Positions 1 to 19,698 of a stretch of DNA of 22,566 nucleotides are shown here, in pieces; the stretch's first letter is position 1, and every line of letters begins with the position of its first letter. Under the pieces are notes generated by a model that was not told the DNA's origin, searched no databases, and was given only the letters and a program-made list of their open reading frames with translations. Both the position numbers and the translations under genes were made by a program. This DNA is from a virus, in the IMG/VR virus record IMGVR_UViG_3300032177_000076, positions 1 through 22,566 of that record. One strand, written 5' to 3'.

Positions 1-137
1 CCTGCCCCTGCTCCAGGCGGTTGGCTGCATAGACCGCTGTACGCGGGCAGTCAATGTGGCGGAGAGCGGGACCAAATGCTAAAAACCGAAGTTCGCCGGG
101 AAATCGTGGGTCCGGGGGTCAGGAACGCGGTTTTTGA

Positions 138-1403: not shown

Positions 1404-1407
1404 TTTT

Positions 1408-1665: not shown

Positions 1666-1677
1666 TCTTCCTCTTTT

Positions 1678-2942: not shown

Positions 2943-2959
2943 GTCATTTATTAATCGCT

Positions 2960-5107: not shown

Positions 5108-5119
5108 TATTTTTTTTAT

Positions 5120-5147
5120 CTGGATTCCCGCTTTCGCGGGAATGACA
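5120..5147. repeat. Dispersed ATTCCCGC hairpin repeat, copy A
   Basis: CTGGATTCCCGCTTTCGCGG followed by GAATGACA contains ATTCCCGC-TTTC-GCGGGAAT, an 8-bp perfect stem. It is identical over 28 bp to copy B. Such elements, familiar as the RESGNP/FAGMT artefact in translated databases, are dispersed intergenic repeats in many Gram-negative genomes. Confidence 0.85.
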
Positions 5148-5155
5148 CACTTGTG

Positions 5156-5548
5156 TTAAATCAACGAGCGGGCCTGGCATACGAAATCAACGTAAACATA
5201 ACTGGCGGTCATGTGGAATGTCTTGCCCGTGTTGTCTGAAATAAGCCGGATGGAATCGAAGACTATAGAGTTGTATGTGGTACCCGCGAATGAATAATCG
5301 CCAGGCAGCCAGCCGGGCAGGTAGCTTAAGGCATTGATGCCGGTTTGCAACGTGGCCCGGGCGACGGCGTAGGAGGCCCCCGTTGCACGCAGGCGGCCGG
5401 ATATGATCAGCGGATAGCCCCGCGTGCCCATCCACATGCCAAGCAGGCCGTTCGCACCGGGGAAGGCGGTGTAGTTGCGATGATGGATCCACGGCTGGGC
5501 GGCCACGCATATCTCAGAACCAAAAATATCTGTCAGGGCGGTTGCCAT
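5156..5548 (-). CDS. Minor tail protein, function unknown
   Basis: A 130-aa protein between the tape measure and the hub-like gene, starting MATALTDIFGSEICV and rich in aromatic and beta-type residues (PWIHHRNYTAFPGANGLLGMWMG, broken here by no known motif). Position suggests a distal tail or baseplate component, or the partner joining tape measure and hub. I do not recognise a family. No Shine-Dalgarno precedes the ATG at 5548. Two extra copies of its first bases, each with an AGGTGA-type ribosome binding site upstream, lie at 5619-5651 and 5767-5799, so the present start region appears rearranged by repeat insertion. Confidence 0.7.
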   Translation of the reverse strand: MATALTDIFGSEICVAAQPWIHHRNYTAFPGANGLLGMWMGTRGYPLIISGRLRATGASYAVARATLQTGINALSYLPGWLPGDYSFAGTTYNSIVFDSIRLISDNTGKTFHMTASYVYVDFVCQARSLI

Positions 5549-5580
5549 TTATTCGATTATCTTTTCGTTTTATTGTTTTA

Positions 5581-5651
5581 CTGGATTCCCGCTTTCGCGG
5601 GAATGACATACTTATTGTTGTCAGGGCGGTTGCCATGTTTATCGGTCACCT
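5581..5651. repeat. Dispersed hairpin repeat copy B plus duplicated gene start
   Basis: Copy B of the ATTCCCGC-TTTC-GCGGGAAT element (5581-5608) is fused to a copy of the downstream gene's start, TGTCAGGGCGGTTGCCAT on the plus strand (5619-5636), and its leader ATCGGTCACCT (5641-5651). Read on the minus strand, this gives an ATG at 5636 with TTAGGTGACC before it and a dead 40-codon frame beginning MATALTTIS. Confidence 0.8.
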
Positions 5652-5696
5652 AAAAGCAAACAGCAGGAAACCGCCTGCGGCGGAAGCCATTTTATG

Positions 5697-5799
5697 CTGG
5701 ATTCGCTATCGCGGCTCTCCGCTTCACTCCGTGTCCCGCTTTCGCGGGAATGACATACTTATTGTTGTCAGGTCGGTTGCCATGTCTTATCGGTCACCT
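5697..5799. repeat. Dispersed hairpin repeat copy C plus second duplicated gene start
   Basis: Copy C is interrupted: CTGGATTCGC at 5697 is separated from the TCCCGC-TTTC-GCGGGA core by about 30 bp. From 5734 to 5799 it repeats copy B almost exactly, including TGTCAGGTCGGTTGCCAT (5767-5783 region) and the leader ATCGGTCACCT. It abuts the 3' end of the tape-measure gene, so it probably marks the ancestral start site of the 130-aa tail gene. Confidence 0.75.
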
Positions 5800-5800
5800 T

Positions 5801-7342
5801 TTAATTTTCAATGTCGCTGCGGCTGACACGGGGAGTGGGGTCAACGCCAGGCCGTGCGAAGATCATTTCGTTATGATAATTGATCGTGATCCCGGCCTGG
5901 TTTTCCAACGGTTCGAGCATCGCATTCGCCCTGCCAACCTTGGCAGGTGACATCGCTGCCAATCTTGGCTTCATGCTAAAAATAGACATTCCCATCTTGT
6001 CAATTTCTTCTTGTTTGTCCTCTGGAAGCCTGCCTTCGGCTATATCACGCCGCAACGCTTCATATCGCTGCCATAAAGGTTCCCATACTGTTTCATAGGA
6101 GATTTCTTCATCTTCAAGCCGGGTCATCGTCCCTCCCCTGTCCCCTTTGATACGTTTCCACTCCGCCTCACCGGCGTCTATTAAAGCCTGGCCCTTTTGT
6201 TCTTCCGGCGTGGCGGTTGCACGGGCACGCACAGCCTCGGCTTCTATCGCTTCGACCTGGCCTGGTGTGGTTTTATTCCATACATCCGCCTTGGCCTGAA
6301 ATTGCGCTTCGGTGGTACGCATGAACCGTTCTTGCGACTCTTGAATGCGTGGCAATTGAGCGGGGCTGTAGATGGTTTTCAACTGGCCAACTTGTTCGGG
6401 GGAGATACCGGCATCCATAAGCTGCTGTTTGCTGGACCCGGCAACCCACTGGCCGAAGGCGGTTATCTGTTGATCGTAAGGCAGGTCGGCAAAGCCGCCG
6501 CCGATAGCCTTTGCTACCCCAGGTTGCAGTAGCATGGCGGAGGTCTGATCGGTCACAGAAGCGAATCGCTCGGAGGGCTTTAAAACACGCAGGGCGGATG
6601 CAAGCTGAGCCATAGCCATTTCCGGGCTTGCCCCGGCGCTAAGGGCGGGCATAATAGACTTGATAGCGACGGGCATGAAGGCATCAAAATCACCGACCCC
6701 GCTGATTTGCTGGGCGGTGGATAGCTGCTCTAACCGCCGCTGGGCTTCCTGCTCGGTTTTAACACCCATAGCGCCCAGGAGCTTAAATATATTGCCGAGA
6801 GAAGATGTGCTAACATCTCCTCTTTGAGTAAAGCCCGCAACGGAACCGGCGATGGCTAATTGCTCCGGGGTGAGCAATTGACCTGAAGTGCCAAAGGCGG
6901 CATGGGCGGAGACGGCGACACCCTCGGCGGCCTCGAACGAGCCGAGATTGCCGGCCGTCTGTATCTGTAAGATTTGCTTTCGTGCGGCTTCGACGCCGCC
7001 GGGCACACCCTGTACATCAGCCTGGTTTGCCAGCGACTTGGCGGCCTGGTCGAGAGATTTGGTGGATTCGACAAGTTCCTTTTGGGCTTCGGAGATTTTA
7101 TCGATATAGTCGAGCCATTTTTGGAAGAAGGACCATAGACCGCTTATGCCGATGAAGCCCAGCAGGTAGCTCTTTAGCGAATTGACGGCGTTGCCGAGCA
7201 GGTTCATCTTGCCGGACGCACCCTCGGCATGGCCGCCGGCTTCGCTGACTTTTTTACCGGCGGAGTCGATCGCGTTGCCGTACTCATCGACCTTTTGCTT
7301 ATCGGTCTCGGTAGTTATATGGACATTTATTTCTTTTGCCAT
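5801..7342 (-). CDS. Tail tape measure protein (short)
   Basis: A 513-aa protein encoded between the tail tube and distal tail genes. Residues ~8-50 are helical with heptad-like spacing. A hydrophobic segment follows at ~53-75 (LKSYLLGFIGISGLWSFFQKWL), then long Ala/Gln/Glu-rich helices. The C-terminal tail TINYHNEMIFARPGVDPTPRV is of the kind seen at tape-measure C-termini. It should set tail length; at the usual ~1.5 Angstrom per residue this implies a short tail. The first codons have no clear Shine-Dalgarno. No tail-assembly chaperone frame separates it from the tail-tube gene, which is unusual. Confidence 0.8.
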   Translation of the reverse strand: MAKEINVHITTETDKQKVDEYGNAIDSAGKKVSEAGGHAEGASGKMNLLGNAVNSLKSYLLGFIGISGLWSFFQKWLDYIDKISEAQKELVESTKSLDQAAKSLANQADVQGVPGGVEAARKQILQIQTAGNLGSFEAAEGVAVSAHAAFGTSGQLLTPEQLAIAGSVAGFTQRGDVSTSSLGNIFKLLGAMGVKTEQEAQRRLEQLSTAQQISGVGDFDAFMPVAIKSIMPALSAGASPEMAMAQLASALRVLKPSERFASVTDQTSAMLLQPGVAKAIGGGFADLPYDQQITAFGQWVAGSSKQQLMDAGISPEQVGQLKTIYSPAQLPRIQESQERFMRTTEAQFQAKADVWNKTTPGQVEAIEAEAVRARATATPEEQKGQALIDAGEAEWKRIKGDRGGTMTRLEDEEISYETVWEPLWQRYEALRRDIAEGRLPEDKQEEIDKMGMSIFSMKPRLAAMSPAKVGRANAMLEPLENQAGITINYHNEMIFARPGVDPTPRVSRSDIEN

Positions 7343-7360
7343 TATTTAACTTTCAACTTT

Positions 7361-7388
7361 CAGACATCAGACTTCAGACTTCAGACTT
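7361..7388. repeat. 7-bp tandem repeat (CAGACTT x4)
   Basis: CAGACAT followed by three perfect CAGACTT units lies in the 53-bp gap between the tail-tube stop and the tape-measure start, in the tape-measure leader. The array is slippage-prone and could change leader length. Confidence 0.85.
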
Positions 7389-7395
7389 CTAACCT

Positions 7396-8295
7396 CTAAG
7401 CGATTGTGATGATCTTGTTGGCGCCGGCGAGCGTTAACGGGGTGCCGGTTAAATTGGCCACATCGAATCTACCGGTGTGTTCGGTAAAGCCCAGGCCGCC
7501 GCCGCCGGAGGAGTCGAACGAATTGAAGTCCGCGTTGGCAATTGTGAGGGTCTTACTGGCCGCGCCCTGGCCCTGGCGGATTGACAGGACAAGGGCGGCG
7601 GGAGCTGCGACCGTCAGCCGCTGAGCCAGCAGGGTAGCGGTTGCGATGGAGGAATCCTGGAAGGTGATCGAGCCGGCGGCGGTCATGGCGTCCAGGTCGG
7701 CGTCAACGCAGGTGTAGCCGACATCGCCATCGTTGCACGCCTTGCTGAGCGGGATGGTGAGCGTGAAAGAAAAGGCGGTTACGTGGTAGATCGGCACGGC
7801 GGCGTGCAGTGCGGTGAGGATTCGAAGGCCGCCCCACGCGGCGGCAAGATAGCTGGGCTTGGCCTGGCCGTCGAGCAGCGCCCACATATCGGCGATACCC
7901 TTGGTCTCATCGGCCGCCCGGCACTCGAAGTCGTACGAGCAGACGGCGTAACCCTCCTTGGTTAAGGTGATGGTTACGTTGTGGATGACCGGCTTGGTTA
8001 TGGTATGCTTTATGTAGCCGGTGGTCTCGGCGATCCCGGCCCGTCGTTCAAAAAAAACTTTCGTACCGACGGTCCCGGTCAGCAGGTCAACCGCGTGGAC
8101 CCAGTCCTGGGTTACAATCGTGCCACGGACGAACTGGCACTCTTTATCCTTAACGGGCAGGGCTAGCCCGTCCGGGGTGGATTTGGCGATTACATCATAG
8201 CCGCTGTTTATTCGGGCGGTCATAACGCCGCCGACGTCAACTCCGTTAACGACTACGCCCTGCGGGGTCTTGACTCTTTGATTTACGGTAGCCAT
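7396..8295 (-). CDS. Major tail tube protein
   Basis: A 299-aa protein directly upstream of the tape measure, the usual place of the major tail protein. The first ~200 residues are beta-rich and suit a tail-tube fold (VTITLTKEGYAVCSYDFECRA, AFSFTLTIPLSKACND). The C-terminal ~90 residues, with GGGGLGF and NLTGTPLTLAGANKIITIA, look like an added Ig-like decoration. AAGGAG lies 8 nt before the ATG, in the loop of an A/T hairpin (8299-8314). Assignment is by position and fold type; I do not recognise a named family. Confidence 0.75.
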   Translation of the reverse strand: MATVNQRVKTPQGVVVNGVDVGGVMTARINSGYDVIAKSTPDGLALPVKDKECQFVRGTIVTQDWVHAVDLLTGTVGTKVFFERRAGIAETTGYIKHTITKPVIHNVTITLTKEGYAVCSYDFECRAADETKGIADMWALLDGQAKPSYLAAAWGGLRILTALHAAVPIYHVTAFSFTLTIPLSKACNDGDVGYTCVDADLDAMTAAGSITFQDSSIATATLLAQRLTVAAPAALVLSIRQGQGAASKTLTIANADFNSFDSSGGGGLGFTEHTGRFDVANLTGTPLTLAGANKIITIA

Positions 8296-8298
8296 TGT

Positions 8299-8314
8299 TT
8301 AAACTCCTTTTTAA
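8299..8314 (-). promoter_or_regulatory. Shine-Dalgarno in hairpin hexaloop, tail-tube gene
   Basis: On the transcript TTAAA-AAGGAG-TTTAA forms a 5-bp perfect but A/T-only stem with the ribosome binding site in a hexaloop containing GGA. The stem is weak, so this is the least certain of the four such sites. Confidence 0.4.
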
Positions 8315-8322
8315 GCAGATAG

Positions 8323-8808
8323 TTAGCCGGTTCGGTCGGCGGTAAAGTTCATCTGGATTTGCCGGACTTTCGGCCGGTCGATTACTAACGTTGTGCCCTG
8401 GAATTTCAGGTCATCGCATTTAACGGTCGCATCGGACGGCCGCTCGTGATCGATCGCGGCGATAACGAGCTGCTCGATCTTATTTGTTCCGAGGTGGGTG
8501 GGATCGCCGAACCGGGCGACGCCCGGGCTTGTACTGATGACGCCGATGGCTACCGCGAATTCGAGCGGCTGTCGCAGGTCATCGCCGCCCTCGCGAAAGG
8601 CGTACTGGGGGACGTAGGCTACGAAGGCGAACGGCGCGTAACGGATAAACGCCTCGGCGCCGGATTGGTCGGCGGAGACCTGACCAGTCCACAGTTCGGC
8701 GGTCTTGAAGACCTTGTTGCCGGCCAGTGAAGAGCCGGAGTTGGTCAGGGCCGCGAGCGTGTCGGCGATCCATTGTTCGATAATCGAAGTTTCGCTGCCA
8801 TCGTGCAT
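8323..8808 (-). CDS. Tail terminator / head-tail joining protein, Mu gp37-like (DUF1834-like)
   Basis: A 161-aa protein between the gpG/gp10-like gene and the tail-tube gene, where tail terminators are encoded. The layout resembles Mu gp37-type proteins: an N-terminal amphipathic helix (IIEQWIADTLAALTN), a strand AFVAYVPQYAF, a central VAIGVISTSPGVARFGDP segment, a helix LGTNKIEQLVIAAIDHE, then terminal strands. It should cap the tail tube and join it to the head. The sequence similarity I can judge by eye is modest; the gene order is the stronger argument. Confidence 0.55.
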   Translation of the reverse strand: MHDGSETSIIEQWIADTLAALTNSGSSLAGNKVFKTAELWTGQVSADQSGAEAFIRYAPFAFVAYVPQYAFREGGDDLRQPLEFAVAIGVISTSPGVARFGDPTHLGTNKIEQLVIAAIDHERPSDATVKCDDLKFQGTTLVIDRPKVRQIQMNFTADRTG

Positions 8809-8809
8809 T

Positions 8810-9403
8810 TTAGTTTACATCCTTTATCTCGGAGATCGAATCTTCAATGGCTTTGCCGATATCATCGAGCGATTCCATGACACCATCGTAAAGCGCGCCT
8901 GTGCCCTGGACGAATACGCTGGTGACCAGGACGAATAGCGGGCGGAACTTACCCCGCTTGCCGTTTCTGCGGCCAAACAGGAGCTGGCCTTTGCTCTCCA
9001 CAAAAAAACCATCTTCCACCTGGCGGGGCGATGAGTATTTGGGGACGCCGGCGCCGGTGAGGTTCTCGCCGATCGGGATCGCAAGGAACCTGCCTGTTTT
9101 CGGGCGAATGGTCATCTGCTCATCGCCGAGCAGCCACTTGTATCGGTCAACTGTCGAGCCATCGGGTACGCCGACGACCAGGTGGAGAGGACCGGTCATC
9201 CAACTGGCAAGCTCGCGGGCCAGGCCGCCGCTGCGGCGTTTGAGCGACTGGCCGGAAAGGTAGTCGCGGGCGGTCTTGCCAACGGCGATCTTCCCGCCGG
9301 TCGCCATACCTTTGGAGGCAGCGGCCTCGATGTCGCGGCCGAGCGCGAGTAGCTCATCGCGGACGCGATTATATTCGGGGCCGAGTTGTATCGTAATCAG
9401 CAT
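8810..9403 (-). CDS. Head-tail connector / virion morphogenesis protein (gpG/HK97 gp10-like)
   Basis: A 197-aa protein with an N-terminal helix, then GKTARDYLSGQSLKRRSGGLARELASWM, a loop with TIRPKTGRFLAIPI, and SSPRQVEDGFFV. This IRPK..G..LAIPI pattern with a following PR is characteristic of phage minor structural proteins in the gpG/HK97-gp10 group, which join the head connector to the tail. The start overlaps the end of the upstream connector gene by 7 bp and its stop abuts the next gene, so the three joining proteins are translationally linked. Confidence 0.7.
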   Translation of the reverse strand: MLITIQLGPEYNRVRDELLALGRDIEAAASKGMATGGKIAVGKTARDYLSGQSLKRRSGGLARELASWMTGPLHLVVGVPDGSTVDRYKWLLGDEQMTIRPKTGRFLAIPIGENLTGAGVPKYSSPRQVEDGFFVESKGQLLFGRRNGKRGKFRPLFVLVTSVFVQGTGALYDGVMESLDDIGKAIEDSISEIKDVN

Positions 9404-10356
9404 AACGGATGCTTTATGTAGTTGGCCAGGATATCCTGGACCATGGGTAATAATTGCATGGGCGACGATTTGGCGATTGAGCCGCCGGTGTAAGAGACGG
9501 CCGTAAGGCCGATATCATCTTTACGTTTGAAGATAAAACATGATTGCTCGATGGCCGCCTCACGCAGGTCGTTTGGCAGGGCGGTTTCCCCGACGCCCGG
9601 GACCTGGCCGGCAGGGCAATAGCCGCCGCGATATATGACCTGGATTGCATCATCGACCATCGGCCACGCGAGGCCGAGGCGGTAGAGGATGCCGGTGGAT
9701 CCGCCGGTGATGAGGCGGTATTCGGTATTGGCGACCAGGGCGGCGGCGGAATCGAAAGCCCAGTCGATGGCGATCTTGACGCTCGCGATGGAGGCGGTTG
9801 GGTAATAGTTAAGCTGGAGCCGCGTACCGTAACCGCCGAAATATTCGGTTACATTGGCGGCGGTGATGATCAGCGGCCGGGCTATGTGCGATTCGAATAC
9901 CGATGTGACAGATGTAATTATACGGCCGATGGTCTGGTCGTTATCGGTATCGGCGGCGGCGATGCCGAGCCGGTCCTTGACATCGGTCAGCGTCGCGAGC
10001 TTACCGGTCGAAGTGGTCGCTGTGAGCTGGGCGGTAGCGGTGGTATCTTTATCCCCGGCGCAGACGGCCCGAACACGAACGAACGCGGCCGACTCCGTGA
10101 AGGTCCCTACCGCCGCCTTGCCAGTAGAGATCGGGACGGCTGGGACGCCGGCGTGCTGATCGGTGAGGATGGTTGTACCACCATCGGAAGAGGTGTCGAT
10201 CTGGATATCGGTAAGGTCGTCGGCGCTGCCGCCGCCGGCGTTGGCAATGGTCAGCGTAAAACCGCTGACAGCCTCAATATTGGTCCAGTCGATAAGCGTG
10301 GCGAGCGAATCGCCTACGGTTGCCGGGGCGGATGTCATTGCTACAAGCTCAGGCAT
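9397..10356 (-). CDS. Head-tail connector (HK97 gp6-like) with extra N-terminal beta domain
   Basis: A 319-aa protein. The C-terminal ~200 residues, from TLTDVKDRLGIAAADTDNDQTIGRIITSVTS onward in two helices, match the gp6-like connector pattern: an N-terminal DVKxRL helix, a long second helix ending IARPL, strands EYFGGYGTRLQL, and a terminal LREAAIEQSCFIFKRKD helix. Normal gp6 proteins are ~100-200 aa. The first ~115 residues are an additional Thr/Ala/Gly-rich beta domain resembling an Ig-like or surface-exposed module. AGGGAAA lies 8 nt before the ATG. It should form the ring below the portal. Confidence 0.75.
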   Translation of the reverse strand: MPELVAMTSAPATVGDSLATLIDWTNIEAVSGFTLTIANAGGGSADDLTDIQIDTSSDGGTTILTDQHAGVPAVPISTGKAAVGTFTESAAFVRVRAVCAGDKDTTATAQLTATTSTGKLATLTDVKDRLGIAAADTDNDQTIGRIITSVTSVFESHIARPLIITAANVTEYFGGYGTRLQLNYYPTASIASVKIAIDWAFDSAAALVANTEYRLITGGSTGILYRLGLAWPMVDDAIQVIYRGGYCPAGQVPGVGETALPNDLREAAIEQSCFIFKRKDDIGLTAVSYTGGSIAKSSPMQLLPMVQDILANYIKHPLC

Positions 10357-10418
10357 AAGTGCTTTCCCTAATAAAATCAGAAGTCAGATATTAGTTTTAT
10401 AACGCTTTTTTTCGGTAG

Positions 10419-11096
10419 TTAGCTCCCGGATGAAACTGTTTGTCCGCCGGCGTTGTCTGCATCTTCCGGCCCACTGTCGGCTGGGGCTGAGTTGTCGGCA
10501 GGGGCTTCGCTGACCGGTTCATCTTGTTTTGGCTGATCATCATATTTGGATAGCTCCTGTTTGGCCTGGTTGGCGGCCAGGCGGGCATCTTCGGCGGTTC
10601 TGGATTGCAGGTCAACTTCGGCCTCGGCGGCCATGTACAGACCGTTCAGCTTCATAGTCGTCAGCCTGGCGGTTTCCACTTGCTTGTTCAACTCTTCGAG
10701 CCTGGCGGTTTGCCTGGCAAAGCTGGCGATGGCTTTGTTGTTTGTTTTACCCGCGAGTTTAGTGACTGTATTCTCGCAATCACTTTGCTCTTCGAGCAGC
10801 GTTTTGTGGCTACTATATGCTGTGTGATATGCCTGCTTTGCATCGCAAGCGATCCTTACTGCGGTGGCGACCTTGTCGGCGGCGAGGATGGATTCCTGCT
10901 GGAGTCGCAGGAATGTTTGCTGGGCCTGCTCGCGGTCGCGGGCGGCCTGGTCAACGCCGGCCTCCCAGGGCGAGACGGCTGGCTCGTAAACATCCGCAGG
11001 CAAACTATCAAGAGCATCTTCGGTCACATCGCGAAGCTCACCCTTGAGGTACATATTGACGCCTTGGTTGCAGGTTTTCATGATTCTTATCCACAT
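10419..11096 (-). CDS. Coiled-coil structural-region protein, function unknown
   Basis: A 225-aa protein. Residues ~45-190 are a long Ala/Gln/Glu/Lys-rich coiled coil, and the last ~35 residues are a Pro/Asp/Ser-rich, probably disordered, acidic tail. It lies between the candidate decoration protein and the connector. The ATG at 11096 has AAAGGA 8 nt upstream; a second ATG five codons later is also possible. It could be a scaffold-like or head-completion protein, but head phages with a capsid delta domain normally need no separate scaffold. No family recognised. Confidence 0.7.
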   Translation of the reverse strand: MWIRIMKTCNQGVNMYLKGELRDVTEDALDSLPADVYEPAVSPWEAGVDQAARDREQAQQTFLRLQQESILAADKVATAVRIACDAKQAYHTAYSSHKTLLEEQSDCENTVTKLAGKTNNKAIASFARQTARLEELNKQVETARLTTMKLNGLYMAAEAEVDLQSRTAEDARLAANQAKQELSKYDDQPKQDEPVSEAPADNSAPADSGPEDADNAGGQTVSSGS

Positions 11097-11146
11097 AGTT
11101 TTAGTCCTTTATTTCTTATCGTTTGATATATAGCGGTTTAACAAGA

Positions 11147-11191
11147 GTCACGGGGGACGCAGGTGCGTAGGATGCTCTGCGCCCCCGTGAC
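11147..11191. terminator. Long hairpin (15-bp stem) between head genes
   Basis: GTCACGGGGG-A-CGCAG (11147-11162) pairs with CTGCG-CCCCCGTGAC (11177-11191), perfect except for one bulged A, around a 14-nt loop. It occupies the 107-bp gap after the candidate decoration gene on the minus strand. On the minus strand it is followed by only a weak T-rich stretch (TCTTGTT), so it could act as an attenuator, an RNase III site or a 3'-end stabiliser for the abundant capsid mRNA. Confidence 0.6.
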
Positions 11192-11203
11192 ATACAATTC
11201 AAA

Positions 11204-11656
11204 TTACACGACGATCAGCTCGGTCAGACCCTGACCGGCGGCGTTTGCCGGGCCGTTGCCGTCGGGCCGCGAGAGTACGGCCTCGATGCACAAGTTGGCA
11301 CCGTTGGTCCCGTCGCCGGCGTGCGGGACATTGACCTGCATGTACCTCTTGTGAGTTTTGGTCAGGTCAATATCGATCGCGAAAATTTTGTCATCTTCCG
11401 TGGCGGCAATCGCGTCCGCCAGGGCGGCGCCAGTAACGGCGGTGTAGGTGCCGCCGGTAGTGTCGCACTCCTCTACGTACGGGGCGGTGCCTTCGGCGGT
11501 TGAGCCGATGGCGGCGTCCAGGGTTCCCACGAGGAACTTAACGCGAAGATGGCCCCAGCCGGCGGTGTCAACGTAGGTGTTGCCGGCGAAGTCTCCGTTG
11601 TCCTTTAACTGCGGGGGCAGCAGTAAGGCGGATTTCGTTTGCTGTGTCTCGATCAT
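11204..11656 (-). CDS. Candidate capsid decoration/stabilisation protein
   Basis: A 150-aa, beta-rich, Thr/Gly/Ala-rich protein directly after the major capsid gene, the typical place of decoration proteins. Stretches such as GHLRVKFLVGTLDAAIGSTAEGTAP and KRYMQVNVPHAGDGTNGANLCIEAVLSRP (quoted only in part as motifs) suggest a jelly-roll-like virion protein seen in many phages. The ATG at 11656 is chosen over an upstream TTG because TTTGGAG lies 9 nt before it. The function is inferred from position and composition. Confidence 0.65.
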   Translation of the reverse strand: MIETQQTKSALLLPPQLKDNGDFAGNTYVDTAGWGHLRVKFLVGTLDAAIGSTAEGTAPYVEECDTTGGTYTAVTGAALADAIAATEDDKIFAIDIDLTKTHKRYMQVNVPHAGDGTNGANLCIEAVLSRPDGNGPANAAGQGLTELIVV

Positions 11657-11744
11657 TTCTGATATCTCCAAATAAAAGTAATGTTTTTTTAGTGACTTTT
11701 AACGACTGGTTAACCGGCCGTTAAACACTCATTTGTCAACCGCA

Positions 11745-13073
11745 TCAAGATGCGGCGGTGATCAGGCCGCAGATCGGCCCGGCATTGGTCGTATCGCCGA
11801 CCCCGTGAACGGTTGGGGCGACCCGCTCGGTGCCACGAATGCCGATCTGGTCCGAATCGAAGTATCGCTCGGTCGAGCGGGTGATAGTGATCTTTCTCCG
11901 GTCGCCCAGGTAAGACCCGAGCTTGAGATTGCCGAGAATCGAGCATATCTGGCTGTTGGCCTCAACCTTGGGCATGGCGGAGCAGAGGCGGACCGGGTAG
12001 CCCAGGAAGGTCCTCTGGCGGGTGACGGACCCGGTGAGAATCTCATTTGCGTTGACCCCGCCGGCGGCCAGGGCGAGCCGGACCATGACGCTGTAATAAA
12101 TCTTGCGGGAATTGTACCACTTGAGATTAATGCCATCATCGGCATAGTCCGGGACGATGGAAAGAACATCCTCAAAGTTGGCCAGGGTCAGCTCACTGTA
12201 GAGGTTGCCGGCGCCGACAACGAGTGACTTAATGTTGGCGATGGTCGCAGATACCTTCAACAAGGCGCCGGTGATGCCTACGTGGCCAAAGTAGGTGCTG
12301 CTACCATCACCTGAAAATCCGCAGAGGTCTTCCTGCTTGGCGAACGCCATGCCGATCAGCGTGCCGATCAGCTCGCCTATGGCGATGGCCGAATCTTCGT
12401 TCAGTTCCGAATCGATGGCCGTCAGGGTGATCCATTTCTTGGCGTTCATCCCGACGGTCTGGAAGCCCGGATCGGAAAGGGTGGGGACGACGCCGGCGCC
12501 AGGACAATAAACAGTAAGGCCCGACGCGAGGTTGGGTGCGATGGCGCTGTCGGAGGCCATTGGGTACTCGATAGATTCCTGCCGGAAGATTCCGTATTTG
12601 TCGATCAGCAGGATAAGGTTGGGGATAAGCTCGGTGGGGACAAGAATGCCGCCGGTCGAGCCGACATCCTCGCCCATTGCCTTTTCATTTTTTTCGCAGA
12701 ACTGTTTAAGTTCGACTCCATTGCTTTCCAGCGCAGCCTTGGCGGCCACGTGGCCACAGGAGGCCAGGACAAATAAGCCGGCCAGCCTGGCGGTGTCCAG
12801 GCTGCCCCAGACCCCGTTGTACGCCCCGTCCGGCGACTTAATGGCGGCAAAGCGGTTGGACCGGAGGTGCTTGATCTGGCTTTGCAGATCGTCGTTATAC
12901 TTCTTGATCTGTTCTATCTCGGTTGTGGCGGTCTGGAGGGCCGCTTTATTCTGGGCCACTGAGTCGGCTATCGCATCGTCGATGGCTTTTCTAAGCTCAC
13001 CCCTGGTAGCCAGGCCCTTGGCGGTGTCACGCAACATAAGTTCTATCTTTTGCTGTAGTTCTAGATCGGTCAT
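11745..13073 (-). CDS. Major capsid protein, HK97 fold
   Basis: A 442-aa HK97-type capsid protein. Residues ~1-75 are a helical, coiled-coil delta (scaffolding) domain. A protease cleavage region is expected near GEDVGSTGGILVPTEL (~134-149). The mature part contains the E-loop/P-domain style sequence YGIFRQESIEYPMAS, the long spine helix ELIGTLIGMAFAKQEDLCGFSGDG, and the terminal SYLGDRRKITITRSTERYFDSDQIGIRGTERV segment typical of the A and P domains. It follows the prohead protease and precedes the connector genes, the standard HK97 order. AAAAAGGA is upstream of the ATG. Confidence 0.95.
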   Translation of the reverse strand: MTDLELQQKIELMLRDTAKGLATRGELRKAIDDAIADSVAQNKAALQTATTEIEQIKKYNDDLQSQIKHLRSNRFAAIKSPDGAYNGVWGSLDTARLAGLFVLASCGHVAAKAALESNGVELKQFCEKNEKAMGEDVGSTGGILVPTELIPNLILLIDKYGIFRQESIEYPMASDSAIAPNLASGLTVYCPGAGVVPTLSDPGFQTVGMNAKKWITLTAIDSELNEDSAIAIGELIGTLIGMAFAKQEDLCGFSGDGSSTYFGHVGITGALLKVSATIANIKSLVVGAGNLYSELTLANFEDVLSIVPDYADDGINLKWYNSRKIYYSVMVRLALAAGGVNANEILTGSVTRQRTFLGYPVRLCSAMPKVEANSQICSILGNLKLGSYLGDRRKITITRSTERYFDSDQIGIRGTERVAPTVHGVGDTTNAGPICGLITAAS

Positions 13074-13112
13074 GTCAATTATTCCTTTTTGTTTTTCGCG
13101 GGGTCGAATCCC

Positions 13113-13134
13113 AATCGCAACACGTGTTGCGATT
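13113..13134. repeat. Perfect 22-bp palindrome between protease and capsid genes
   Basis: AATCGCAACAC followed by its exact complement GTGTTGCGATT, with no spacer, overlaps the protease stop codon. It lies in the 59-bp gap before the capsid gene. It has no T-run, so it is either an RNA hairpin boosting capsid mRNA or a dyad DNA-binding site. Confidence 0.7.
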
Positions 13135-13942
13135 ACGATAATAAGTTGAACCCACTTTTGAGGTTACTAACTATTGTTTCTAACATTTTTTCCAACTGCC
13201 GCTCGGTTATGTCCTCATTGCCTGCAGGGACGGGCCGGTCGGGAGAGTCGCCGAGCATTAACTCTCTCGCAAGCTCGCCATGGTCATGGCAAAGGAGCGA
13301 TTTGATTTCTTCGAGATCATCGTGAATCTGAATGATGGTTTCGTTCTCGTTAAGCCAGATGGTGATCTGGCCTTTGATTGCGTCGGCGACAGTATCGGCG
13401 ACAGCCTTGACATCGAGCGGGGCGTTATCGTCGAGTATCCATCCTTTTTTGGCGAGTGCCTCGCGATTGGCCCCGATGAGGACGCAGGATATCTCGACCA
13501 GCTCGAGCTTGGTTATGATGAATATATGCCCGTTCTTCTCGGTCTGCTCTTCGTGCCCATCGAGCGGGATAAAGCCAATGGAGACCGCTCGCATGTGTTT
13601 GTCCCGGTACAATATCCAATACTCTTCCGCCAGTTCGGTCGTGGCGAAGATAAGGTCCATCTCGCAGATGTGCGCGGTAGCGCGGAAGGAGTCGGTATCC
13701 CACGAGCCGACCACGGGAGGCATCCCATTTTCAAGTTTGAGTTTGTGGCAGGCGGGGCAGATGGGATTTTTGGCGAAGTCCTTGATCGCCGCCGCGATAG
13801 CGGGCATCTCGATTCGCTCGTTGTCACGGTCGATTTTATCAGATGAGATAACGAATCGGATGGTGCGAGTTTCCGTATTGATGCCCTTCTCGGCAACGTA
13901 GCCCAGGAAGTGCCGAACATCTTTTGTGTTTAAAGGTTGCAT
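13133..13942 (-). CDS. Prohead protease (HK97/U35-type)
   Basis: A 269-aa serine protease that cleaves capsid delta domains during head maturation. The fold begins with RTIRFVISSDKIDRDNERI. A likely catalytic His is His66 in NPICPACHKL, with PPVVGSW following. The catalytic Ser is Ser121 in MRAVSIGFIPL, the family's hallmark VSIGF motif. Conserved strands LELVEISCVLIGANREAL follow. Residues after ~165 form a helical C-terminal extension. It starts one base after the portal stop codon, giving tight coupling, and is followed by the major capsid gene. Confidence 0.92.
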   Translation of the reverse strand: MQPLNTKDVRHFLGYVAEKGINTETRTIRFVISSDKIDRDNERIEMPAIAAAIKDFAKNPICPACHKLKLENGMPPVVGSWDTDSFRATAHICEMDLIFATTELAEEYWILYRDKHMRAVSIGFIPLDGHEEQTEKNGHIFIITKLELVEISCVLIGANREALAKKGWILDDNAPLDVKAVADTVADAIKGQITIWLNENETIIQIHDDLEEIKSLLCHDHGELARELMLGDSPDRPVPAGNEDITERQLEKMLETIVSNLKSGFNLLS

Positions 13943-13943
13943 T

Positions 13944-16301
13944 TTATATATCCTTTTTCGTTGGCTGGTTTTTGCGCATAAGATCGTACGAGTAAAATGT
14001 CATGGCCGGGTAGCGAGCCAGCCCGAGGCCCTTGCCATCTTCGATCGCCGCCGCGATCTCCAGGCAGCGACAGTTGGCGATGTTTTTCGCCGACCCGCTG
14101 GGATCGCCGGGGTAGGCGAGTGCCTCACCATCGACGAAAAATGGCTGATCGAGCGGGATGGGTTTGGCGTAGGTCGCCCCGGCGGCTTTGTGCGAGTCGC
14201 GGACATGGTCATCCCCGGAAGTGATCCAGGACTTGCCAGCGACCGTGGCGTGGCGGAATGATTCGTGCCGACCGGTATTGATCGCACCAGCGGTCTGGGT
14301 GCGGGCGATGGTCAGGGCACGGTCTCGAAATGCGTCGAATGTGCCCGCGACCCGGTCGGTAAGCTGGGCGAGAGACTCACCCTTATCCAGTCCCTCGGTT
14401 AACTGTTGGGCTACCCGGTCGCGGGTTATCTGATTGACCTTGGCGAGCCTGATGTTGGAGACAGTACGTTTGTAGCCGATACGCGATGATCGTTTGACCT
14501 GCTCAACGGCGGCATCAAACGCATCGCCGGCCAGGCCTGCCGATTCGGCCAGGCCCTGGCGGACGCCAAGCTCGGCTGCCCTGCCGTAAAAGGTATTATT
14601 GATAACACGCAGCTTACCATCTTCCACTCGCAGGTCAAAGACTACACGGGCGATGATCTCATTTGGATCGGCCTTGGTGGAGATGGCCTTTTGATTTTTA
14701 AGGGCAGCCTTCAGTTTGGCGGTGAGCAGCCGCTGCTGATGAACAAAGAATAAGCGGATGGCCGAATTATATTCACGCTCAAGTCCGGCCCAGGAGATTA
14801 CCCAGTTTTTCCACAGGCGCAGCCGCTGCTGCTGGTCGGCTTTTTCGGTTTTCTGTTCGGTCAATAAACCCGCCAGCCCACGGGCTGTCTGCGAGTAGTC
14901 CTTGCCCTGATCTCCATCGCCGGTCTCATCTTCAACTTCGCCTTCAGGCAGCGAAGGGCTGAGGATACCTTCGGGTCCGGCCTCGGTGATGTAAGAGGCC
15001 GGGACCTGGCCCATGGGTATCCACCATTCATCGCCCCAGGGGATTTTGGCTACATCATAAGGCAGATCGTGGGCCTCGATGAGCTGATTGAGAGGGACGC
15101 CCGCCTGGGTGAACTTGAGGGTCTTTTCCGCCACCTCGCGGATGGACTCCTGTACGGTCGGATGCTGGTCGGTGTCAAACCAGAGGAATACCCTTTGCCG
15201 GCCGGCGATGGCTTTAGTCCTCGCGGCGCGGTAACAACTTTTTTTCGCGGGACTGGCGGGGCCGTGGTAGGTCTTGGCCGATAACGGAGTGACGCCGGGC
15301 GTGTCGGAGGCGTAGAAACGAGATAAGATGCCGCTGGCGATGTTGCCGGCGAAGAGCTGGCTTAGCGGGATGATCGTGTTAAAGATAAAGTCACGCTGGG
15401 CCGGGCCGTGGGCGTACTGGGCCTCGGTGACGAGCCCGACCAGCTCGGGCGGGACGGAGAATGTGGAGCATAACTTAAGGTCGGTCATCCGAGAGATTTC
15501 GGCGACCTGCATATCGACCATTTTTAACGCCATGGTTTTTACATCCATGCCGCCGGTGAGGATGACTGTGCGCTTGGTCTTGCGGGGGCCCCTGTGGCGG
15601 GAGTCGATAGTGGAGCGAACGAGGTTGACTTCTTCCGGCGTCGGCCGTCCGGGCATGGTAAGGATTAGGCCCGGCTCAGCTCCGTTCTGAAGAGCGGCTG
15701 AGTTGAACATGCTGGCGGCGTAACCGTAGTTGATCGATAGGCTGGCCGCATTGAGCGGGCCGAGGCCGTGGAACCGGCTGTAGGGATTGAAATTTTTCCA
15801 CTGGTGGACCTCGTCGAGGTCAAAGACGGCTCGCTGGCCGCCTTGCCCGCGAAATTCCCAGCCGGTTAACTGGCCTGAATCGGAGCCGTTGGATGTTACT
15901 GGGTGCATCTGTGAGCCGGGTACGACCATGATCTCCTTCGGACGGCGGCCGTCCATCTCGGTGAACAGCCAGAAGACGTCACGGCCGAGGGCGTAGTGGC
16001 CGATGGTCGAGGTGACGAACTGCTCCCAACTCAGCCTTGGGTTGTCGAACAGCAGATTCCAGGCTGAGCCGGACTCGATGATCTTATCGTCAAAATCGGA
16101 GATTACGGGAAAGAGGCCCGCTATTCCATCGATGAGCTTGTTAACGCAGGCAAAGACCAACTCTACCTGGCTGTAAGGCCTGGTGGGGTTGTCGGCGGCT
16201 AGATCAGTATCGGATTCGTCCAGCCTATTGTCCCATGCGTAGGCCAACGCGGCGCCGAATGATTTGGTTATCCATGATTTTATTGTACTTTTAAAGGACA
16301 T
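13944..16301 (-). CDS. Portal protein fused to a Mu gpF-like (MuF) minor head domain
   Basis: A 785-aa fusion. Residues ~1-400 are an HK97-family portal: YSQVELVFACVNKLIDGIAGL near the start, GRDVFWLFTEMDGRRPKEIMVVP, FNPYSRFHGLGPLNAA, and a wing/stem segment ISRMTDLKLCSTFSVPPELVGL. After an acidic linker (~455-475) and a helical region, residues ~640-755 form a MuF domain: TIARTQTAGAINTGRHESF, W-(x)4-DDHVRDSHKAAG, YPGDPSG and NCRC. The portal is the DNA-entry ring; MuF proteins are minor head or ejected proteins, normally a separate gene. The Shine-Dalgarno is weak (GAGAAAA inside an A/T stem). Confidence 0.9.
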   Translation of the reverse strand: MSFKSTIKSWITKSFGAALAYAWDNRLDESDTDLAADNPTRPYSQVELVFACVNKLIDGIAGLFPVISDFDDKIIESGSAWNLLFDNPRLSWEQFVTSTIGHYALGRDVFWLFTEMDGRRPKEIMVVPGSQMHPVTSNGSDSGQLTGWEFRGQGGQRAVFDLDEVHQWKNFNPYSRFHGLGPLNAASLSINYGYAASMFNSAALQNGAEPGLILTMPGRPTPEEVNLVRSTIDSRHRGPRKTKRTVILTGGMDVKTMALKMVDMQVAEISRMTDLKLCSTFSVPPELVGLVTEAQYAHGPAQRDFIFNTIIPLSQLFAGNIASGILSRFYASDTPGVTPLSAKTYHGPASPAKKSCYRAARTKAIAGRQRVFLWFDTDQHPTVQESIREVAEKTLKFTQAGVPLNQLIEAHDLPYDVAKIPWGDEWWIPMGQVPASYITEAGPEGILSPSLPEGEVEDETGDGDQGKDYSQTARGLAGLLTEQKTEKADQQQRLRLWKNWVISWAGLEREYNSAIRLFFVHQQRLLTAKLKAALKNQKAISTKADPNEIIARVVFDLRVEDGKLRVINNTFYGRAAELGVRQGLAESAGLAGDAFDAAVEQVKRSSRIGYKRTVSNIRLAKVNQITRDRVAQQLTEGLDKGESLAQLTDRVAGTFDAFRDRALTIARTQTAGAINTGRHESFRHATVAGKSWITSGDDHVRDSHKAAGATYAKPIPLDQPFFVDGEALAYPGDPSGSAKNIANCRCLEIAAAIEDGKGLGLARYPAMTFYSYDLMRKNQPTKKDI

Positions 16302-16314
16302 TTAATTTTCTCAG

Positions 16315-17682
16315 TTAAATTAAGATACATTCGGGGGTAACTGCCGGCTGCCAGGCGGCCTCGTTGCAACACGCGCATGCCCAAAACTCATCGGCGTGAC
16401 CTTCGTCCGTTTGGGCCGCATCGTAACGGACGTTGCCGGAAATCGTGACGGTTTTGCGAATCGAATGGAAGCTCTCCCTGATCTGCGGATCGTCCGGGAC
16501 GCGGATAAGTTTATCCTCAAACCGGCCGAGAGTGATGGAGGCCAGGTGCTCCTTAACGGTCGAAGTGAATTTGATTTTCTCAACGCGATGCTCGCCAAAT
16601 TCTTTTTGCAGCGACTCGACGAGCATGTCGCCAATTCCCGTGGCGTCGATACAAGCGCGGGCGATGTTGCGATTAAGCAGCAGGTCGCTTGCGACCTTGA
16701 GCTGGACATGATAAGGGGTTTTTTTGAGCCGGATGATCTTGCGGGCGATGAGTACATCGCCGGCCAGCTCGGCGATCCAGAATACGGTCAGGTGCTTTTC
16801 GCGACCGATATCGCCGCCCAGGTAATAAGTGCGCTGGCCCACGGCGTGGGGGATAAGGTCGCGCAGGCAGTCGGGACTTTCGCACGATTGATACGTGTCG
16901 TAAGAAATAAGCGTACTGGCGGCGGCCGAGGGGACGCACATATATTCCTGGTTAAAGGCATCTTCGCTTCGGCAGCGTGCCCGGCAGTCGGCCAGGAACT
17001 CCCGGCGAACAGCCGGGTCGATGTGGTCGAGCTTGCGTATCTTTTCGGCCAGGCCCTGCTCGACCGCTACGGTGATCGGGGTAAGATGATAAGACCAGTT
17101 GAGCGTTTTTAACTCGCGGGCGGTAGCCAGGCCGTCGGCTATCTTGCGGGCCTTCTTAACGAGATTGTCAAACTCGGAGCCCTCGCCGTTGCGAGTGGTG
17201 AGTATCTTGATATCATAGCCCCATGTGGTCGCGGGCAGGGCGGCGTCAAGCATCAAACCGGGCGAGTCGTGCCAGTCGAACTCGTCCAGGCAAACATCGC
17301 CACCCTTCGAACGGAACCGGCGGGGATTGCTGCTCATGCAATTGATTCGCGAACCGTTGGGGAACTCGACTACGTAGTTGTTGTATTTATAGCCTTTGTC
17401 ATCTTCAAGAGATTCGGTGAACTCTTTGACGACGGTCTCTATCAGCTCGCACCATTGACGACAGTACGCGGCGAACTCCATAGCGGCCGATTCATCGGCA
17501 CTGCTAAACCAGTAGTCGCGGCGGTGGTCGATCTTGTTACGCAAACCGCAGGCGGAGTAAGATTCAGCGTAGGTGGCGCCGATACGACGTGACTTGTCCC
17601 ATAGCTTGCTGGCAGAGCCATCCTGTATCCAGGCCCGCTGGTAAGGGAGGAAGTATTTATTTGATAACAATAAGTCGGTCAC
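16315..17682 (-). CDS. Terminase large subunit (Mu gp28-like)
   Basis: A 455-aa packaging ATPase/nuclease. The start YFLPYQRAWIQDGS leads into Walker A KSRRIGATYA (30-39); Walker B is LDEFD (132-136), with a coupling motif ILTTRNG (~160-166). The RNase H-like nuclease carries GGDIGR (Asp291), CIDATGIGD (Asp346) and GHADEFWA (Asp431), so all three acidic residues are present. The wording of the ATPase motifs (YQ...D...KSRRIG) is that of Mu-type gp28 proteins rather than HK97 TerL. The start codon is GTG, overlapping the TGA of the small subunit (GTGA), with AGGAG 10 nt upstream. Confidence 0.93.
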   Translation of the reverse strand: MTDLLLSNKYFLPYQRAWIQDGSASKLWDKSRRIGATYAESYSACGLRNKIDHRRDYWFSSADESAAMEFAAYCRQWCELIETVVKEFTESLEDDKGYKYNNYVVEFPNGSRINCMSSNPRRFRSKGGDVCLDEFDWHDSPGLMLDAALPATTWGYDIKILTTRNGEGSEFDNLVKKARKIADGLATARELKTLNWSYHLTPITVAVEQGLAEKIRKLDHIDPAVRREFLADCRARCRSEDAFNQEYMCVPSAAASTLISYDTYQSCESPDCLRDLIPHAVGQRTYYLGGDIGREKHLTVFWIAELAGDVLIARKIIRLKKTPYHVQLKVASDLLLNRNIARACIDATGIGDMLVESLQKEFGEHRVEKIKFTSTVKEHLASITLGRFEDKLIRVPDDPQIRESFHSIRKTVTISGNVRYDAAQTDEGHADEFWACACCNEAAWQPAVTPECILI

Positions 17683-18248
17683 GTTGCGGCGACTCCTAAA
17701 TGAGCGTCAACGATCTCCTGGATTAATTTGCGATCAACTCCCGCCTTAGTGAGTTTTTGTTTCGTACTGGCGGCGGCGGCTTTGGCCCTGGCGGCGGTCC
17801 GGTCCTGGAGGTATTTATCAGCCGTGATAGACACGTAAGCACAGTCCTTACAGGTTTTGGCAAGCTCGGATATCTGCTTTGGCGTAAGGTCATTGGATAT
17901 CGCCAGCTCGATGGCCTGGGCGGTGATCAGCTCAACCACTGCTTTTTGCGTCTCGCTTGGCGTTTGATCATCGAGGGTAGTCATAATGTTTCGCACTATG
18001 ACTCCCTTGTGCTTCATCATCCCCAACACGACGAACGGCTGAGCCCAGCGGCCTATCGCGGACTCAGAGATGTTATGACCTTTTTGCACACAATAAGCGG
18101 CCAGGTCCTCGTAACGCGGCTTGCCCTGTCGCTCGCCCGGCCCGTCGAAATCCGGCGGCCACTGGCCATCCACGACCATGCGGACCAATATATCACGCAG
18201 GTCGGCGGGCAGTGTGTCAATAGTGCTATGCGATCTTCTTTTTGCCAT
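17679..18248 (-). CDS. Mu gp27-like small terminase subunit (DUF3486-like)
   Basis: A 189-aa protein beginning MAKRRSHSTIDTLPADLRDILVRM, the opening characteristic of DUF3486/Mu gp27 proteins: Arg-rich, SxIDxLP, then a helix. An HTH-like region follows (YEDLAAYCVQKGHNISESAIGRWAQPF; 'S.S.IGRW' is typical). The C-terminal half is helical and Ala/Lys-rich. It recognises phage DNA and assists the large subunit, encoded next with a 4-bp overlap. Its own leader has only TTGGAAA far upstream, so it may depend on coupling with the preceding gene 7 bp away. Confidence 0.85.
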   Translation of the reverse strand: MAKRRSHSTIDTLPADLRDILVRMVVDGQWPPDFDGPGERQGKPRYEDLAAYCVQKGHNISESAIGRWAQPFVVLGMMKHKGVIVRNIMTTLDDQTPSETQKAVVELITAQAIELAISNDLTPKQISELAKTCKDCAYVSITADKYLQDRTAARAKAAAASTKQKLTKAGVDRKLIQEIVDAHLGVAAT

Positions 18249-18255
18249 GATGGTT

Positions 18256-18561
18256 TTATATTTCCAAAGCCGGGTCGGTCATGGTACCCTCGGCGATCTC
18301 CTTGCCCCTGTCCGTCAAGATGACGACCTTCTCGTCAAAAGAAACCATGCCGCCGATCTTGTCATCGATGAACGCGATGTAGTTTTTTTGCTTCAGGTAA
18401 AAAATATCTTTGAGGAAAAGCTGTTTATCGTAAGTTGGATCGCCGCACAATGTGCGATATAGCGTGTCGAGCCGGACGGGCGTGGGGTAAAAGTGGCCGA
18501 GGTTGAATACAACCATGCCTCGCTGTTGTTTGATCTTAATCGCTTGCAGTGATTTATCCAT
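18256..18561 (-). CDS. Mu gp26-like winged-helix phage protein
   Basis: A 101-aa protein with helix-turn-helix character. A segment ending RLDTLYRTLCGDP is followed by a helix LFLKDIFYLKQKNYIAFIDDK, a beta wing MVSFDEKVVILTDRGKEIAEG and an acidic end. This is the pattern of the small family encoded between the DUF2730 and DUF3486 genes in Mu-like phages (Mu gp26 position). Its exact role there is not known to me; location suggests a part in packaging or its regulation. AAAGG lies 8 nt before the ATG, and the start overlaps the preceding gene by 8 bp. Confidence 0.75.
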   Translation of the reverse strand: MDKSLQAIKIKQQRGMVVFNLGHFYPTPVRLDTLYRTLCGDPTYDKQLFLKDIFYLKQKNYIAFIDDKIGGMVSFDEKVVILTDRGKEIAEGTMTDPALEI

Positions 18562-18949
18562 TGTTGTTGCCTTTCTGGAATTTGGCCGCTATTTGGCTGG
18601 CGATCTGGCCGCAGATATCCGGCAGCTTCTCGATGATCGTGAGTTGGCCTTCCATTCGGTTTAGGATGGATGTAACGGTCTTTAGCTCGCTGCGTGAGAC
18701 GGCCTCGCCACGAACCCAATCTTCCTTTGAGACCGTAGTACGATTGCAATCAACTTTGCAGTCGGAGATTCGCTGGGTTATCTTTTTTAACTCATTTTCG
18801 GATTCAGCGATACGGCTGTCCTGCTGATCGATTCGCTGGCTGAAAACAGCCAGGCCCTGTTTGATGGACCGCAAGTAGATTATTATCATGCCGCCGATTA
18901 TTGACAGTAAGAAGTTGACGATAATGTCCCAACTCATTTGGTTTTCCAT
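18554..18949 (-). CDS. Mu gp25-like membrane-anchored coiled-coil protein (DUF2730-like)
   Basis: A 131-aa protein with an N-terminal membrane segment at ~9-26 (IIVNFLLSIIGGMIIIYL) followed by a coiled coil and a terminal helix (SELKTVTSILNRMEGQLTIIEKLP). This is the layout of DUF2730/Mu gp25, encoded just before the gp26-gp27-gp28 packaging genes, as here. The function of the family is unsettled. The ATG has AGGAG 4 nt upstream, and a second GGA occurs 11 nt further back (CAAGGAACATCAAGGAG), but I see no stem around it. Confidence 0.8.
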   Translation of the reverse strand: MENQMSWDIIVNFLLSIIGGMIIIYLRSIKQGLAVFSQRIDQQDSRIAESENELKKITQRISDCKVDCNRTTVSKEDWVRGEAVSRSELKTVTSILNRMEGQLTIIEKLPDICGQIASQIAAKFQKGNNNG

Positions 18950-19000
18950 AGGGCTCCTTGATGTTCCTTGCTTAAAAGTTTACGGTTTATGCAAATTCAA

Positions 19001-19678
19001 CTAGGCCTCCGGGGCCAGGGCTACCGGGACCACGGGCGTCGGCTGGACGATAACAATCTGTCGCTTGATCGGGATACGCTCGGCGTTGACGAGCAGCTCG
19101 GTTTGAGGCGATTGAACGGACGTTTGAGCGGCCTTGAATGTGTTTAGCTCGGCGGTTTTGCCTTGATCGCGGAGGTATTGAGCAAGTAGCTCGTTGCCCT
19201 GGACTACCTCCTTTAATGCATCGCTCTTCTGGCGGGCCAGGGCGATCCAGTCGATGAGCTTCTTGCCGCCGATACCGGCGCCGCCAAAACCGAGGGCGAT
19301 GATTAGCTGTGATGCGAGCGAGAGGCCGCCCTCGGCGGCGTTAAACACATCCTGGGCGGCCGGCCGACGGGCCGCATCGGCGGCGGCCTGAGCGGCGGTA
19401 GTATCGTAGTCGGCGATCTCGGGGGTTTGAGGCATACCGCTATAAGCAAGCGAGGCGGCGGTGCCCACAACTATTTGTTTGGCGGCCTCGGAGCCGGGCT
19501 CCAGCCCTAAGTCGGCGGCGGACCGGGCGGCCTGGTGAGTGGCAAAGGCGAGCTGCTTTTGCGATTCGGTGGGGGCAAACCGTAGGCCGCCGCAGCCGGG
19601 CAGGGTAAACGCCAGGGCCGTGAAGATACAAAGGGATAACAACGCGGGAAAGATTTGGCGGGATGGATTGATGTTCAT
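19001..19678 (-). CDS. Predicted lipoprotein, possible lysis-region protein
   Basis: A 225-aa protein with a signal peptide and lipobox (hydrophobic ~9-25, then LPGC with Cys29), so probably anchored in a membrane. It carries a second hydrophobic stretch at ~125-145 (LSLASQLIIALGFGGAGIGGKKLIDWI), a helical region after it and a Pro/Val-rich end. In Mu-type genomes the genes preceding gp25 encode lysis functions (endolysin, holin, Rz/Rz1), so a spanin- or holin-like role is possible, but no endolysin is visible. The ATG at 19678 is chosen because AAGGAA lies 8 nt upstream, inside a perfect hairpin (19681-19698), and because it gives a good signal peptide. Confidence 0.65.
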   Translation of the reverse strand: MNINPSRQIFPALLSLCIFTALAFTLPGCGGLRFAPTESQKQLAFATHQAARSAADLGLEPGSEAAKQIVVGTAASLAYSGMPQTPEIADYDTTAAQAAADAARRPAAQDVFNAAEGGLSLASQLIIALGFGGAGIGGKKLIDWIALARQKSDALKEVVQGNELLAQYLRDQGKTAELNTFKAAQTSVQSPQTELLVNAERIPIKRQIVIVQPTPVVPVALAPEA

Positions 19679-19680
19679 AG

Positions 19681-19698
19681 TTATGGTTCCTTCCATAA
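19681..19698 (-). promoter_or_regulatory. Shine-Dalgarno in perfect hairpin hexaloop, lipoprotein gene
   Basis: On the transcript TTATGG-AAGGAA-CCATAA forms a perfect 6-bp stem with hexaloop AAGGAA carrying the ribosome binding site, two bases before the ATG at 19678. A GGA in a hexaloop over the Shine-Dalgarno is the form of site bound by CsrA-family repressors, and the upstream gene encodes a CsrA-like protein. Confidence 0.6.

Follow-up and report, generated by a model that had tools for sequence, protein, structure and literature searches.

The window analysed here is the whole viral contig of 22,566 bp recorded in IMG/VR as IMGVR_UViG_3300032177_000076, a linear, complete viral record whose longest open reading frames (ORFs) lie on the minus strand, from 555 to 19,696. 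At 13,944-18,949 it contains Mu-type packaging genes followed by the gene of an HK97-type portal protein that ends in a MuF domain. The original prediction, made from the sequence alone, described this block as a mosaic of Mu-type packaging genes and an HK97-type head. Its five ORFs were confirmed in position; the protease and capsid genes fall just outside. In the direction of transcription the genes are:

18,554-18,949, minus strand: protein in the gp25 position, named from its place (hhalign probability 18.6%; phrog_462, 3.3e-6)
18,256-18,561, minus strand: gp26-like protein (hhalign probability 96.9%, E 1.7e-10)
17,679-18,248, minus strand: small terminase, Mu gp27 type (PF11985, Mu Gp27, 7.1e-15; phrog_426, 1.2e-17)
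16,315-17,682, minus strand: large terminase, Mu gp28/B3 type (Terminase_6N/6C; best phage match B3, 38% identity)
13,944-16,301, minus strand: fused portal-MuF protein of 785 amino acids (aa) (PF04860 and PF04233; structure model; portal half nearest gene transfer agent and HK97 portals)
13,133-13,942, minus strand: prohead protease, S78 family (PF04586, 9.6e-8; VSIGF motif in the translation)
11,745-13,073, minus strand: major capsid protein of the HK97 fold, delta-like in its N-terminal region (PF05065, 7.9e-19, residues 141-419)

The first four genes had been read as a gp25-, gp26-, gp27- and gp28-like series. Three of the four assignments stand: gp27 is identified by PF11985, gp28 by Terminase_6C/6N and by the B3 match, which is annotated 'similar to phage Mu gp28', and gp26 by a comparison of profiles (hhalign) with the gp26 proteins of ten known Mu-like phages, in which swapped controls reached 0.1%. 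The same comparison does not support gp25 homology of 18,554-18,949, and this label is positional only. The predicted continuation with an HK97-family portal, a protease with the VSIGF motif and a delta-domain capsid protein agrees with the Pfam matches, which give the HK97-type order of PF04860 portal, S78 protease and PF05065 capsid protein. In the Pfam search of the 785-aa protein, PF04860 matched the front (8e-35, residues 49-326) and PF04233 the rear (3.4e-11, residues 629-746). The Mu gp29-type portal is absent as claimed, for PF06074 (Portal_Mu, DUF935 family) had no match in the window or in six long relatives, and in the same search it matched strongly in B3, Lsp-JY19, ThpS-P1 and RhkS_P1. 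A Mu portal identity of the portal half was thereby ruled out. The fold comparison points the same way: the portal half most resembles portals of gene transfer agents and HK97, with that of the Mu-like phage JBD30 in 25th place, and a profile search of solved structures returned portals only, aligned over the front part of the protein.

The window was compared with related viral records, 22 in all when it is included, which are not fully independent since they contain two near-identical pairs. The MuF domain was found in 22/22. Mu-transpos_C (PF09299) occurs in nine of the 22, Gam in the same nine, and GemA in eight of these nine; it was not found in G013. The transposase of G010 matches PF02914 (DDE_2) in addition to PF09299, and its neighbour is a MuB-like protein (phrog_296, 8e-44), homologues of which were present in all eight long viral contigs compared. 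The expectation that MuA and MuB lie beyond the right edge of the window was thus supported by the relatives, in which the structural gene order is conserved and the transposase arm is directed away from the structural genes. By its relatives the window is assigned to a transposable, Mu-like phage family, in which the 'Saltoviridae' criteria MuA, MuB-like protein and GemA are found at the level of the family, and it represents roughly the left two-thirds of the genome of a tailed planctomycete phage. The hosts are probably Phycisphaerae (Planctomycetota). The mosaic is real and conserved in this Mu-like phage lineage of planctomycetes.

Two loci depart from the common arrangement. In L123/L124 (G071b) the tail-tip genes (21,434-23,946) end the transposase arm, on the strand opposite to the other structural genes, which, unlike the placement in the other relatives, reflects either a large inversion or an assembly error. 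In L069, a contig of a Phycisphaerae metagenome-assembled genome (MAG), half of a large terminase gene (10,001-10,669; 61% identical to that of the window) was found, neither portal type was detected at the locus, and the prophage is either decayed or interrupted.

Mu-style packaging with flanking host DNA had been raised as a question. The sequence evidence is in favour of it and comes from the contig ends. The left end of the window carries two features:

1-37, no strand: flank outside the phage left end, presumably host DNA by comparison with the flank of G006, too short to identify
38-60, plus strand: left transposon-like end, TGT N13 A[AT][AG]TGGC, an outward-facing motif common to the contig ends of relatives

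The motif was spotted by eye in printed contig ends and then made into a pattern. It yielded 13 matches in 21 contigs, of which 12 face outward and lie no more than 1,200 bp from a contig end, ten of the 13 within 150 bp; no inward-facing match was seen near the contig ends, and one match lies inside G011. Sixty Markov-resampled sets gave no match within 150 bp of the ends and a mean of 2.5 matches in all. As the pattern was drawn up from six contigs, the window among them (G000, G004, G010, G013, G019 and G021), these are not independent tests; the end-bearing contigs outside the design are G006, G008, G020, G255 and G071b, the last two from bacterial genomes. At right ends a second, similar site lies about 20 bp further inward. 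A comparison of contig ends for inverted 11-mers revealed nothing clear. G011 has no motif at its ends, G012 has no match at all, and none was found in G135, G071a, L062, L137, G025 and L133. TGT...ACA ends with inverted motifs resembling transposase sites are present in the phage family of the window.

In G006, 1,138 bp outside such an end (L036 1-1138) encode NusG and ribosomal protein L11 (nusG, rplK), and the phage end lies 12 bp upstream of the nusG start codon. Of 397 genomes in the class to which the Sedimentisphaerales MAG G022 belongs, 372 contain a match to this NusG, the best of them at 86% identity. A position beside nusG in an essential operon would fit an insertion of the lytic phase or a packaged flank rather than a stable prophage. 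The genome of Sinorhizobium phage Aussie, deposited as complete, begins with TGT and ends with ACA. D3112-type phages have the same terminal TGT and ACA, and the host flank on their left measures 31-36 bp, according to the accessible part of PMC5977238. In the most economical reading, the contigs would stop at the motif since the DNA outside varies between molecules, as it does in Mu-type virions or among scattered insertions.

Several observations weigh against a transposable phage that packages host flanks. The window has no PF09299/MuA match, and the contig ends before the transposase. Its own end is among the data that shaped the motif. Mor was found in none of the nine transposase-bearing relatives; the B3 control was positive, and the annotated Mor of Aussie was also missed. 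For a 5-bp duplication, the left and right flanks of G013 and those of G019, the contigs with sufficient flank on both sides, do not match, which would be expected if the flanks of each contig derive from different molecules. Nor were 5-bp duplications and exact ends found for the distant prophages G267 and G096 in a search for equal 5-mers plus TG/CA, which gave many candidates and no standout. As to Mor, the accessible text of PMC8705779 describes Leptospira transposable prophages that also lack Mor/C.

Taken as a whole, the best explanation, which we hold to be very probable, is a transposable planctomycete phage with Mu/B3-type terminases, an HK97-type head with a portal-MuF protein, and headful packaging that includes host flanks; the last element is likely in view of the terminase types, the genes for transposition and the contig ends. 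In this model, the phage copies would multiply by replicative transposition. The gp27/gp28 motor would start near one phage end and package a headful through the HK97-type portal, and host DNA would be taken along on both sides of the phage genome.

A phage that is transposable by descent could instead package phage-only DNA, without host flanks, either by a pac headful on concatemers or from cos sites. The head module of the window is of the HK97 type, and such heads serve pac and cos phages in general. The record of Microcystis phage Mwe-Yong1112-1 (Mwe-Yong1), in which the protease gene lies at the end, the capsid gene in the middle and an integrase is present besides MuA/MuB, also speaks for phage-only packaging. 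Arguing against it are the gp27/gp28-type terminases, the several contigs that stop just past the transposon-like ends, and the deposited Aussie genome, which is bounded by such ends. We regard phage-only packaging as improbable.

The fusion itself was considered unusual in the original prediction, a view that was not supported, since the same fusion is found in Geobacillus phage GBK2, Bacillus phage Silence, Aussie, Mwe-Yong1 and Microbacterium phages. Aussie (OR786373) and StopSmel (OR786374), both Sinorhizobium phages, have the same gene order of gp27-like small terminase, gp28-like large terminase, HK97 portal-MuF and S78 protease as the window; the PF05065 capsid protein in this order was read in Aussie only. 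Aussie has annotated transposases A and B and GemA. The pair differs from the window in that the early genes lie at the left end and most genes point in one direction, the large terminase is 35% identical to that of the window, and the fused protein stands on a very long separate branch. Mwe-Yong1 (MZ436628) resembles the window in its gp27/gp28-type terminases, the fused portal and the S78 protease, and has an annotated transposase and MuB. The record (L113, with 1,276-2,538 and 25,099-28,020 as the stretches concerned) differs by a capsid and tail block on the strand opposite to terminase and portal and by an annotated integrase besides the MuA/MuB-type genes. The fused portals comprise 702 aa in Aussie, 691 aa in StopSmel and 688 aa in Mwe-Yong1. 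The Pfam MuF matches of Aussie (3e-5) and Mwe-Yong1 (6e-6) are significant and just under the Pfam cut-off; a home-made MuF profile, whose members include these two, also flags StopSmel, which is not a member. Like the window, Aussie and Mwe-Yong1 lack the Mu-type portal PF06074. Pseudomonas phage B3, a transposable siphovirus, provides the best terminase match among phage records and has gp26 and gp27 homologues; it differs from the window in its portal, which is of the Mu gp29 type (PF06074), and in having gp30 as a gene of its own. GBK2 and Silence, which are not Mu-like, have the HK97 portal and MuF in one gene and differ in that no terminase match to the gp28-type profile was found in the stretch read. 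The Microbacterium clusters that carry the HK97 portal-MuF fusion are EA3/EA5/EA8/EB, as given in the accessible part of PMC7302621. Neither the fusion nor the mosaic is therefore unique; with precedents among deposited phages, the window is a relative of a known kind. Among open-licence PMC papers, judged by title or the start of the abstract, none was found that reports transposable phages with HK97 portals or with portal-MuF fusions, and the accessible parts of PMC8705779, PMC7761591 and PMC6776037 do not mention them.

A tree of the terminases comprises 47 rows (28 with HK97-MuF, 15 with the Mu portal and four with neither); the HK97-MuF label needs seven changes on it, at least six of which are forced by well-supported branches. 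A minimum of six changes of portal type means that the head module was swapped repeatedly under Mu-type terminases. The portal types were assigned by home-made profiles built from the same sequences. The tree does not include the truncated L069, the duplicates L063 and G025, or L009; L011, L016, L017 and L021 were never on it, so that the phage of G008/G020 is absent. Among the 397 genomes of the class, 33 matched the fusion profile, many to one half only.

In the original prediction the MuF domain of Mu was thought to survive in the fusion. The presence of the domain at the C-terminus of an HK97-type portal stands; its derivation from Mu is called into question, as phages that are not Mu-like have the two parts as one unit. 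Most likely the fusion would thus have been acquired along with the HK97-type head module, and not through capture of the F gene of Mu. Alternatively, as the original prediction implies, it was built within the Mu-like phages, by a weld between their retained gp30/F gene and an HK97 portal that came from elsewhere. Such a weld would be easy, given that Mu-like phages have MuF-type genes adjoining their portals, and the fusions of the Aussie/Mwe type do stand on a very long branch apart from that of the window. The fusion tree is dominated by long branches, which makes it unreliable; the same fusion in GBK2, Silence and the Microbacterium phages speaks against a weld, and every sequence with an HK97-portal match in the profile survey had MuF in the same ORF. 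We consider origin within the Mu-like phages unlikely and prefer arrival with the head module.

That the gene is an artefact of sequencing or assembly, or a frameshift that joined two genes, was ruled out almost entirely by the intact fusion in the relatives, and nothing was found in its favour. In 20 of 21 related viral loci one open frame holds a continuous match to the two halves, and the remaining locus begins at a contig edge. The fused frame comprises 763-838 aa in 21 of the 22 records; the 22nd, of 373 aa, starts inside the gene. The structure model of the 785-aa protein (mean pLDDT 73.6, pTM 0.45, 22 sequences) consists of the portal at about residues 46-427, a low-confidence linker at 428-485, which is predicted to be disordered, and a mostly helical MuF part at about 486-780. 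Among the 20 of 22 members examined, the linkers share no conserved internal start that has a Shine-Dalgarno-like site, so that there is no sign of a separately made MuF; a weak start of this kind was seen in scattered single members only. One MuF per portal subunit, as originally proposed, holds only if the fusion protein is not processed, in which case MuF would be brought to about twelve copies. Tethered to the portal crown by flexible linkers, these would reach into the head and may have a part in ordering or ejecting the DNA.

Within the fused gene, the window and G001 (L002) share 95% nucleotide identity at 13,201-15,188, a block that runs from the C-terminus of the portal through MuF and over most of the protease gene; divergence is seen in the portal front and in the capsid gene. 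Per 50 residues, the proteins are 88-100% identical after residue 400 and 30-66% before it. As the identity splits at about residue 400, the portal front was evidently exchanged independently of the portal end, MuF and the greater part of the protease, and the sequences point to a recent recombination inside the fused gene. In G135, G255 and G071 the fused portal is 39-54% identical to that of the window and the terminase only about 30%. The start of the linker is conserved (consensus EAGxEGLTGPSLPEGE). It is conceivable, if doubtful, that the fusion is a delivery device by which twelve MuF domains are set in the head with the portal and are then freed by the S78 protease at the start of the linker; equally tentatively, the freed MuF would be an internal protein at a fixed dose. 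The portal C-terminus, MuF and the protease should then evolve as one unit, which the block shared with G001 suggests.

The Mu-type portal has been used as a marker for transposable phages, and a portal is listed as one of four proteins found in all Saltoviridae, according to the accessible parts of PMC8705779 and PMC7761591 for the former and of PMC7761591 for the latter. Such a marker would miss the lineage of the window. With a Mu-type motor that has changed portals repeatedly, it can be tested which contacts between terminase and portal constrain headful packaging, and the transposon-like ends offer a means of identifying such phages, and where their genomes truly end, in contigs of uncultured planctomycetes.

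The remaining assigned genes of the window lie between the capsid gene and the left end:

11,204-11,671, minus strand: conserved head-region gene, role unassigned (phrog_5707, 1.4e-9; match in 21 of the 22 records, window included)
9,397-10,356, minus strand: head-tail adaptor (phrog_442, 6.5e-20)
7,396-8,295, minus strand: probable major tail protein (position and conservation; no family match)
5,801-7,342, minus strand: probable tape measure protein of a short tail (same place in relatives, 479-678 aa, similar N-terminus; no family match)
2,960-5,107, minus strand: probable tail-tip protein (position; 48-72% identity in long relatives; no family match)

Between the tail genes and the left end, a C5-cytosine DNA methylase gene (PF00145) is located at 2,142-2,942, with a match in only two of the 22 records, the window included. 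At 1,408-1,665, overlapping an HNH endonuclease gene, lies what resembles a remnant of a nicotinamide mononucleotide transporter, a fragment of 85 aa (PF04973, positions 1-67 of 175).

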